A DNA stretch of 64,000 nucleotides from Oscillospiraceae bacterium. GTDB lineage: Bacteria; Bacillota; Clostridia; Oscillospirales; Acutalibacteraceae. Positions 19,197 to 20,303 of this stretch are shown one piece after another. Positions within the stretch are counted from its first letter, which is position 1; each line of letters opens with the position of its first letter. Below the pieces are notes generated by a model that was given only the letters and a program-made list of their open reading frames with translations, made no database searches and was not told the DNA's origin. The stretch covers positions 264,068-328,067 of the forward strand of contig SVOJ01000002.1 in the NCBI GenBank assembly GCA_015066385.1, written 5' to 3'. The position numbers were made by a program, and so were the translations under genes.

Positions 19197-19784
19197 TTAT
19201 TTGTCAGAAGTAGCATTTTTGTTTGATTGTGAAAATTTATTATATTGTTCTCGTAAGTGAAACAAACCGAACAAATGCCGAAGCGTAAGCGTTAATCCGA
19301 CAAAGCCAACAATGGCTAAAAACAGATGCCTAATATCCCAAAGAGGATTTTTATTAACAATGCAAGATAAGGTTATACCTGCAACCGCTATCGTTGTAAA
19401 AAGAAGCCCGATCAAAACATATTGCATTACCAAGTGTCTTAAGTAGATGTTTCTATATAACTTTCGTTGCAGCAAATCTTCTGTTTTCGTTATACGATAA
19501 ACAGATGTGGTTTTAAGCAGTTCTATAAAACTACCGCCTATTTCGGTGGCATTGAGTTGACTTTTTAATGCTTGCTCGGTTATTATCATTCCACTTTCCT
19601 TGACAAAAGAACAAGTAAAGAAATATTTAACTTCCTTATTTTGTGACCGAATAAATCTAAATTTTCTGAATCCGGAGATTTTATCTAATCTCCACCCATC
19701 TTTCTCCAGTTGTTCCAGTTTGGACTCAATTTCTTCACATTTCCATATTGGAGAGAAGAAACGCATTGACATTGTCTCTTTCAA
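19197..19784 (-). CDS. DUF2812-like membrane protein, TTG start
   Basis: 195 residues. The N-terminal soluble part (MRFFSPIWKCEEIE... and the stretch EKDGWRLDKI) resembles DUF2812 proteins, which pair a small domain reading the stretch x-GW-L with a membrane part. Two membrane segments lie at about 119-144 and 154-174. The start is TTG at 19784, because AAAGGAGG stands seven bases upstream. An earlier ATG at 19898 lies upstream of the promoter, inside the repeat array, and cannot be the start. No function is known to me for the family; members often sit beside PadR-type regulators, which is not so here. Confidence 0.7.
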   Translation of the reverse strand: MKETMSMRFFSPIWKCEEIESKLEQLEKDGWRLDKISGFRKFRFIRSQNKEVKYFFTCSFVKESGMIITEQALKSQLNATEIGGSFIELLKTTSVYRITKTEDLLQRKLYRNIYLRHLVMQYVLIGLLFTTIAVAGITLSCIVNKNPLWDIRHLFLAIVGFVGLTLTLRHLFGLFHLREQYNKFSQSNKNATSDK

Positions 19785-19806
19785 AATGCCACCTCCTTTA
19801 CAATTG

Positions 19807-19842: not shown

Positions 19843-20040
19843 TCGCTGTCGCGAAATAAATCAACGGCTTGCCGTTGTATATCATCAATGCGAAGCATTG
19901 TATATCATCAACACGCAGTGTTGTATCTCATCAAGCTGCAGGGAGATGCACGCTAAAGCGTGATGAGATACAGCCCCAAAGGGGCTGATGATATGCACCG
20001 CACTTCGTGCGGTGATGATATGCCAAGCCTGCGGCTTGGA
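19843..20040. repeat. Mini-hairpin array with complementary spacers (right copy)
   Basis: Eight short hairpins with two- to four-base loops occur in about 200 bases: stems at 19843-19854, 19862-19877, 19886-19900, 19909-19923, 19949-19962, 19971-19987, 19996-20014 and 20023-20039. Left spacers read TATATCAT, TATATCAT, TATCTCAT; right spacers read ATGAGATA, ATGATATG, ATGATATG. The left ones are complementary to the right ones in nested order, so hairpin pairs would be held on a common 8-base-pair ladder. Stem sequences differ between units while structure is kept. No reading frame runs through it. It ends at the U-tract of the tRNA terminator. Confidence 0.8.
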
Positions 20041-20042
20041 TA

Positions 20043-20085
20043 AAAAAAGAAGTAACTTTTGGTAGACAAAAGTTACTTCTTTTTT
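20043..20085 (-). terminator. Terminator of the tRNA-Ser operon
   Basis: A 19-base stem (20043-20061 with 20067-20085) with loop GTAGA, rich in A:T at its base, starting right at the tRNA 3' end. Confidence 0.85.
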
Positions 20086-20175
20086 GGCGGAGAAGAGGAG
20101 ACTCGAACTCCTGCGCCGGTTACCCGACCTACGCCCTTAGCAGGGGCGCCTCGTCACCAACTTGAGTACTTCTCC
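20085..20175 (-). tRNA. tRNA-Ser(GCT)
   Basis: 91 bases including the encoded CCA. Acceptor stem GGAGAAG/CTTCTCC, anticodon loop CTGCTAA giving GCT, a long variable arm as expected for serine, and the T-loop GTTCGAGTC. It reads AGC/AGU codons. Second in a tandem pair with tRNA-Ser(TGA). Confidence 0.95.
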
Positions 20176-20214: not shown

Positions 20215-20303
20215 TGGCGGAGAGAGTGGGATTCGAACCCACGGTACTTTGCAGTACGACGGTTTTCAAGACCGTTCCGTTATGACCGCTTCGGTATCTC
20301 TCC
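20215..20303 (-). tRNA. tRNA-Ser(TGA)
   Basis: 89 bases including the encoded CCA. Acceptor GGAGAGA/TCTCTCC, anticodon loop CTTGAAA giving TGA, long variable arm, T-loop GTTCGAATC. It reads UCN codons. 39 bases upstream of tRNA-Ser(GCT), probably transcribed together. Confidence 0.95.

Follow-up and report, generated by a model that had tools for sequence, protein, structure and literature searches.

Gut-1 RNA, reportedly first described by Weinberg and colleagues in 2009, is listed in Rfam as an sRNA and resembles the elements discussed here in being built of short hairpins joined by short spacers. Group IIC introns insert behind terminators. Likenesses also exist to intervening sequences (IVS) of 23S rRNA, which are insertions at stable-RNA genes, some with a PF05635 gene; in one account, 23S_rRNA_IVP ORFs are placed in insertions of both 16S and 23S rRNA and the domain is called functionally uncharacterised (PMC11270868). 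PF05635 is in turn described as resembling Avd, which is the likeness to the Avd-dependent diversity-generating retroelements (PMC10053308). REP, REPIN and BIME repeats are intergenic inverted hairpins in many copies, and bcr1 and other small bacterial stem-loop repeats are likewise small, intergenic and structured; the latter are set apart by their descriptions, which in the table of PMC2267715 name no ladder behind tRNA genes. Among the titles and abstract openings listed from the open-access literature we found no description of an element such as the one reported here.

In the window, by which we mean the entire 64,000-nt stretch of DNA analysed, we find a hairpin-ladder element of 183 bp on the minus strand, downstream of tRNA-Ser. 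The genome carrying it, likely that of a gut clostridium, is called G000; G001–G025 are labels of same-genus genomes, C denotes a contig and L a locus. The ladder starts with a terminal hairpin X, followed by three left spacers of the ATATCATC type interleaved with two hairpins and then by a central hairpin; a short linker containing the strand X' leads into three right spacers of the GATGATAT type with two hairpins, an end hairpin and GATTT. In the direction of the tRNA genes the features are as follows.

20215–20303, minus strand: tRNA-Ser(TGA), upstream of the ladder and in the same direction (ARAGORN; Rfam RF00005, 57.6 bits)
20085–20175, minus strand: tRNA-Ser(GCT), whose 3' side the ladder adjoins (ARAGORN; Rfam RF00005, 51.2 bits)
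20043–20085, minus strand: intrinsic-terminator-like hairpin with T-run, the seat of the ladder (inverted repeat, 19-nt arms, 100%)
19859–20041, minus strand: ladder element, from ATCC (20041–20038) to GATT (19862–19859) (edges from 783 pairwise copy alignments; fold)
20023–20039, minus strand: terminal hairpin X, CCAAGCCGCAGGCTTGG on the minus strand, its 5' arm also matching the centre
20013–20023, minus strand: left spacer R1, GCATATCATCA
19996–20014, minus strand: hairpin 1
19986–19996, minus strand: left spacer R2, GCATATCATCA
19971–19987, minus strand: hairpin 2
19961–19971, minus strand: left spacer R3, GTATCTCATCA, pairing perfectly with F1
19949–19962, minus strand: central hairpin 3
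19932–19941, minus strand: X', strand in the centre that complements the 5' arm of X, with one mismatch in the window copy (own against shuffled partners across copies)
19923–19933, minus strand: right spacer F1, TGATGAGATAC
19909–19923, minus strand: hairpin 4
19900–19910, minus strand: right spacer F2, TGATGATATAC
19886–19900, minus strand: hairpin 5
19877–19887, minus strand: right spacer F3, TGATGATATAC
19862–19877, minus strand: terminal hairpin 6, followed by ATTTATTT
19197–19787, minus strand: DUF2812 gene, next downstream (PF11193, 28.3 bits at a cut-off of 27.8; start guessed)

The DUF2812 gene differs from the PF05635 gene carried by some other copies. No rRNA was found within the window at the Rfam gathering cut-off, and the ladder sits behind tRNA-Ser, not inside an rRNA. 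Ladders are also unlike the IVS of 23S rRNA in standing behind tRNA terminators, in having multiple hairpins and many copies, and in mostly lacking a PF05635 gene: this coding trait is found in the ladder family but not in the window copy. A CRISPR array was rejected as well, as the repeated parts are 8–11 nt, inverted, and separated by self-complementary hairpins.

The preliminary description, made from the letters of the window, had reported eight hairpins. All eight are present (19843–19854, 19862–19877, 19886–19900, 19909–19923, 19949–19962, 19971–19987, 19996–20014 and 20023–20039), but 19843–19854 falls outside the unit, whose edges are at 19859 and 20041. The perfect pairing claimed for 19924–19932 with 19962–19970 is exact, and a repeat finder returned a 16-nt arm pair at 94%. 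The two outer rungs contain one T.G wobble each on the plus strand, corresponding to an A.C mismatch on the minus, tRNA-sense strand, and the hairpin at 20023–20039 has a second possible partner in the centre, at 19932–19941. Folding on both strands, which had been suggested as a check, beats shuffled sequences: the RNA z is −7.6 on the minus and −7.7 on the plus strand, with 0 of 200 dinucleotide shuffles as good on either strand, and the 183-nt element as RNA folds at −81.5 kcal/mol (minus strand) and −87.0 kcal/mol (plus strand). An RNA z of about −10 is obtained when the folded stretch takes in part of the tRNA terminator hairpin; folded as DNA, the minus strand of the ladder gives a z of −10.3. 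When only the spacers of the window ladder were scrambled, the energy went from −80.9 to a mean of −72.1 kcal/mol and 6 of 300 scrambles were as good, so the nested spacers contribute about 9 kcal/mol beyond the hairpins alone.

A lack of other copies in the genome had been named beforehand as an outcome that would speak against a distinct element; G000 contains at least 14 ladders, comprising 11 places of the window's family (on C12, C13, C16, C23, C27, C32, C38, C40, C41, C47 and C51) and three with TGTAATCA spacers, a lone pattern match on C14 without a hairpin being excluded from the count. A pattern for two right-type spacers matches in 8 of the 26 genus genomes and 35 of 200 family genomes (G000 included), and a backwards control pattern gave 0 matches in every row shown for the same genus and family genomes. 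Since pattern searches see only spacers of the TGATGATAT type, other spacer families are undercounted. On named contigs we find at least 117 stretches and, among the matches listed, 124 clusters; the stretches among these matches are mostly metagenome-assembled Clostridia/Oscillospiraceae, many from ruminant gut samples. The guess that similar arrays may exist in gut clostridia is supported, with copies in same-genus genomes, same-family genomes and mostly clostridial named contigs. Removal of identical copies left 119 elements, of which 103 were oriented by their ATCC end and 16 dropped for the analyses of X:X', spacers and hairpins described below. We found no plasmid match, and plasmid carriage was set aside as the main reading. 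The spacer pattern occurs in six stretches of viral contigs, three of them (L311–L313) resembling the C27 copy of G000; in the other three the ladder is close to where the contig begins. None of the six contains a complete tRNA according to ARAGORN. Because the surroundings of the C27 ladder (G000:C27:21312-21422) recur in the viral contigs L311–L313, this copy is likely to lie in a prophage. At L193:3150-3800 two nearly identical ladders stand in tandem; upstream of the second, about 20 nt from the 3' end of tRNA-Arg recur as a direct repeat.

The copies share a place. Among the matches listed, a tRNA 3' end lies within 150 nt in 46 of 124 clusters (44 of these at 50–65 nt) and a tRNA 5' end within 150 nt in 0 of 124, many clusters being at contig ends, where a tRNA would be invisible. 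The 43 Rfam tRNA matches of G000, a list without the second tRNA-Ser of the window, were grouped by eye into 31 units, ten of which are followed by a ladder; ten of the 14 known ladders of this genome thus stand behind tRNA units, and two of the ten units have a second insert between. Directly upstream of ATCC, 99 of 102 oriented copies have a T-run together with a hairpin of 8 or more pairs, a combination present at 44 of 2000 random positions. Among the 100 copies for which 200 nt or more are available upstream, 57 follow a detected tRNA, in a test that overlooked at least one tRNA (that of L056, detected by Rfam in the G000 ortholog), and 40 of the 43 others also have the hairpin and T-run. 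As these precede nearly all copies (99 of 102), most of those without a detected tRNA included, the ladders seem to dock at terminators, in many cases at the one following a tRNA gene.

The edges were read from 783 pairwise alignments of 89 copies (102 copies were used in the terminator test). On the left, 460 alignments start 1–8 nt before ATCC, within the T-run, and 274 start further upstream. On the right, 331 end 0–8 nt past the G of GATT (commonest +4, +3 and +5), 174 end 6–19 nt early, inside the last hairpin, and 167 end more than 19 nt before the right edge. With 341 alignments ending within the ladder, the edges are not sharp for every pair. The unit shared across copies extends from ATCC, directly after a T-run, to GA, directly before another, and the terminator stem belongs to the site, since it differs between most copy pairs. 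T-runs flank both ends in many of the aligned copies, which looks like a putative target duplication. We saw no transposition event and, at the tRNA-Ser site of the window, no empty site alignable base for base, the terminators of ladder-less species being too different to align.

Two further structures were seen in the same places. By eye, a second structured insert lies behind 9 of the 31 tRNA units of G000 (L289, L291, L293, L295, L299, L301 with two copies, L304, L307 and L308), and consists of a GC-rich hairpin core between inverted and direct copies of the 3' end of the tRNA resident at that site; L307 and L308 have this insert between tRNA and ladder, and at these second-insert loci Rfam at gathering gives tRNAs only. 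A degenerate, T-arm-like GGTTCGAAT tail recurs behind ladders of different tRNAs (L152, L184, L064, L221, L062 and L063), followed in L152, L184, L064 and L221 by a CTTTTTTGTAG-like stretch.

Ladders differ between species at the same place. At the window's tRNA-Ser site we compared 17 loci, two of them ending at the tRNA: G004 has the same ladder as the window, G009 one of the same family with a different X, and G007, G012 and G014 have ladders with other spacers; by eye, G001 and G006 have apparent decayed ladders and G005, G008, G011, G013, G015, G021 and G025 none. Six orthologous sites of G000 and G004 could be anchored and contain a ladder in both species (C12/C1 and C38/C29, which are rearranged, were excluded), and at these six the ladder is kept in two, has one rung fewer in one, another left half in one and another spacer family in two. 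The kept ones are the window site, with both halves 100% identical, and C40/C30, with halves 100 and 96% identical. At C32/C25 G004 has one left rung fewer and the right half is 100% identical, and at C47/C46 the left half is 64%, the terminator stretch 79% and the right half 100% identical. At the two sites that switched spacer family the ladders are 56–60% identical; one of them, C21:275.5, has 95% identity over the terminator stretch and 84% on the downstream side, the other, C21:248.8, has 87% over the terminator stretch with more diverged flanks beyond it (51 and 70%), and the alignments of both keep the T-run with ATCC and the last hairpin. Since interiors or halves differ at these orthologous sites, the ladders appear to be exchanged as cassettes and half-cassettes.

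That the stems vary but stay self-complementary had been taken initially as a sign of selection on structure, and this holds across copies. Among 192 distinct inner hairpins, with 843 guarded stem sites, there are 40 non-Watson-Crick pairs: 23 G.U, 5 A.C and 12 other. The 23:5 excess of G.U over A.C on the tRNA-sense strand has a p of 0.0009, and with the central and right-end hairpins added the left half reaches 24:2 (p 1e-5), both p-values being optimistic, as related hairpins are not independent; right-half hairpins have no strand bias (4 G.U, 6 A.C). Hairpin X (28 distinct X hairpins) and nine bulged hairpins are left out of this count. Hairpin arms match their own partners at 87%, against 64% for swapped partners of equal length (maximum 67% in 200 shuffles). 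The strand X' follows X in the same manner: the mean longest complement in 103 copies is 9.97 for own and 6.49 for shuffled partners, and for the 32 distinct X tails 8.66 and 5.73, with a maximum of 6.75 in 500.

Pairing between the halves has to be considered at two levels. When left and right halves of eight copies from six spacer families were permuted, the true assignment was the best of 40,320, with an own total of −117.9 against a mean of −57.3 kcal/mol (−105.6 against −57.2 with X masked). The own right half is the single best partner for four of the eight left halves; of the other four, two pair best with another copy from their own family and two (L265 and L232) with one from a different family. 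Within the window family, the 62 copies having 3+3 spacers show no covariation of spacer partners at variable positions: where R2 or R3 has C at the variable position (39 cells), the F base is T, a mismatch, in 37 and G, which pairs, in 2, and for R1:F3 there are 23 C.A cells against 2 C.G. The stack of four-way junctions through spacer pairing, as drawn originally, is thus backed across spacer families but not by the variable spacer positions of the window's own family, and the covariation among homologues that had been asked for is present between X and X' and missing in those spacers. None of the three outcomes named beforehand as refuting came about in the form given. Features beyond that first description are the adjoining tRNA-Ser gene with its terminator, the central strand that covaries with the end hairpin, and the PF05635 gene of some other copies. 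In our view the rungs do exist but are only loosely kept, or else are left over from the way in which the halves came about.

How do the ladders relate to Gut-1? At the Rfam cut-off of 50 bits for Gut-1 (RF01706) there is no match in the window at gathering, the window copy reaching 18.0 bits (E 0.9), so by Rfam's rule it is not a Gut-1 member. Three sister ladders at the same tRNA-Ser site (G014 L219, G007 and G012) match in their left halves with 64.4, 59.7 and 55.5 bits, and their right halves, on the other strand, with 35.8, 45.0 and 45.2 bits, below the cut-off; sister ladders L268 and L265 also remain below it (44.8 and 26.7 bits), and an E-value scan of ten loci gave no Gut-1 match for the TGTAATCA ladder L232. 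The remark that no name was known for the array is therefore right for the window copy, which scores below the cut-off, but not for its sister ladders, which match a named RNA. The Gut-1 layout is one of three hairpins with UGAAAU-type spacers on one strand, and the window ladder has hairpins and spacers too, but with a different spacer sequence and order: window-type ladders reverse the half order of Gut-1-type ones, with ATATCATC left and GATGATAT right. The Rfam model spans one half, without the X:X' strand or the second half, and Gut-1 likely corresponds to a single half of such a sister ladder.

G000 has a single PF05635 match, located behind the C16 ladder, which is itself downstream of tRNA-Cys. 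Its protein, P0001, matches Pfam 23S_rRNA_IVP at 64.4 bits and the NCBIfam 'four helix bundle protein', has a relative by sequence in PDB 2rld, and has two relatives among phage records, at 44 and 56% identity. In three same-genus genomes four of five PF05635 genes stand behind a ladder (G000 1/1, G014 3/3, G004 0/1): the three of G014 have a sister-spacer ladder directly upstream, behind tRNA-Arg, tRNA-Leu and another terminator-like hairpin, and the single gene of G004 has no ladder upstream. A profile search of the named stretches gave 21 PF05635 ORFs among the matches listed. Among these matches 12 of 124 clusters have one within 1.5 kb downstream, seven at 34–67 nt after the last spacer, two overlapping it and three at 277–1032 nt (one a weak match), and 112 of 124 clusters have none in this range. 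The remaining ORFs among the matches listed comprise four on the other ladder side and five scored as not near a ladder, one of which, L111, is a frame running across a ladder. Ladder-like arrays are found upstream of PF05635 genes also in L263 (tRNA-Gly), L268 and L269. PF05635 is present in 96 of 200 family genomes and, because many other PF05635 genes among the matches listed have no ladder visible by eye, the link between gene and ladder is one-sided. A promoter-like TTGATT-17/18-TATAAT sequence, seen by eye, begins at the right end of several copies, including the gene-bearing C16 copy of G000; this putative promoter would drive the next gene. At L241–L253 and L317, PF05635 genes are accompanied not by ladders but by short direct repeats (for example AGTGGTTAGTG, GAGGAGTGAGG and AAATGCAAAATGC), which are located upstream or downstream of the gene and sometimes form one long hairpin.

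We propose that the window ladder is one of a dispersed family that stands behind terminator-like hairpins and is likely mobile, docking at terminators; we give this reading a probability of roughly one half. It builds on the place of the ladders, their shared unit, their pairing, their exchange and their gene neighbour, as established by sequence comparison. The ladder would fold as a single strand, as RNA or as exposed DNA, on the tRNA-sense side, and this fold would be what is recognised. Its copies would go into T-runs of other terminators or take the place of resident ladders, and X, pairing alternately with its own arm or with X', could act as a switch. The PF05635 protein, a relative of Avd, may bind the ladder and serve gene-less copies in trans; with its gene next to some copies, it is a candidate partner that perhaps helps in copying. 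The initial suggestion, which favoured a mobile element, a structural one or an RNA over a repeat bound by protein, is supported by the many copies with common edges, by pairing kept despite sequence change, by the strand-specific G.U excess of the left half and by the exchange at orthologous sites. Spread by a reverse transcriptase inside G000 was rejected: there are 0 matches to the reverse transcriptase profile PF00078 in this genome (completeness 97.38), in contrast to diversity-generating retroelements, which use such an enzyme, and no group II intron was matched by Rfam in the window or the scanned ladder loci.

Other explanations have to be weighed against terminator docking. A trailer RNA of Gut-1 type useful to the host, made by read-through from the tRNA and acting as a sponge, stabiliser or decoy, with copies and exchange due to gene conversion, would account for the fixed place and direction behind tRNA genes, for the left-half bias on the tRNA-sense strand and for the Rfam-listed sRNA motif in sister ladders. 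We nevertheless consider it rather unlikely, as only 10 of 31 tRNA units of G000 have a ladder, the site behind the window's tRNA-Ser is occupied in same-genus species by ladders of different spacer families or by no ladder, the edges of the unit are common to different places, and copies also stand behind other terminator-like hairpins (the 40 of 43 without a detected tRNA). Flank-driven exchange has a low probability: homologous recombination and horizontal transfer of tRNA-terminator regions, without any transposition and with some copies carried by tRNA-integrating prophages, agrees with interiors or halves that differ while nearby flanks stay, with the recurrence of terminator sequences at different tRNAs across species (by eye) and with the ladders in six viral contig stretches, but flank homology does not readily explain new places, because 460 of the 783 pairs share no more than the T-run at the left.

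The constant hairpin feet, inverted halves and intergenic spread recall REP or REPIN-like DNA repeats mobilised as single-stranded hairpins by an IS200/IS605-type (Y1, HuH) transposase, and the DNA folding z of −10.3 and the presence of two Y1 genes in G000 would fit as well. Neither gene is flanked by ladder hairpins in this one genome tested, and the resident Y1 genes were rejected as ladder mobilisers; one of them (G000:C23:9231-9569, L310) is a RAYT-like frame with an inner stop and its own flanking repeats of the GGGGACGGTTCT type. The ladders are also unlike REP, REPIN and BIME in having about seven hairpins per unit and in standing behind terminator-like hairpins, and 5' of their hairpin feet the F spacers read TATA or TATG and the R spacers TCAT, not the GT[AG]G that PMC6006769 gives as the REP consensus, from which some REP classes depart. 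This origin is quite unlikely in our opinion. Finally, a cluster of double-strand DNA sites for a protein, with the spacers as sites in inverted order, would be consistent with spacers that are more constant than stems in the window family and lack covariation; a duplex site does not predict that 192 distinct stems keep pairing with a strand-specific G.U excess. Simple protein-binding repeats were rejected as the main reading on these grounds, and we regard such a cluster as very improbable.

Returning to the mobile, terminator-docking ladders, a broader and more tentative proposal is that Gut-1 RNA and the window ladder may represent two lineages within a single, unnamed class of structured mobile elements, with inverted half-modules, a switch strand, docking at tRNA terminators, cassette-like exchange of halves and Avd-like proteins acting in trans, and with no reverse transcriptase or known transposase. 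If this is true, the orphan Rfam motif Gut-1 would become part of a larger element of defined place and edges, with a set of spacer types and a protein as candidate partner, and its role would become testable. The widespread PF05635 proteins, reported in rRNA insertions, would acquire a second context, and tRNA gene terminators would be docking sites for elements far smaller than integrative islands.
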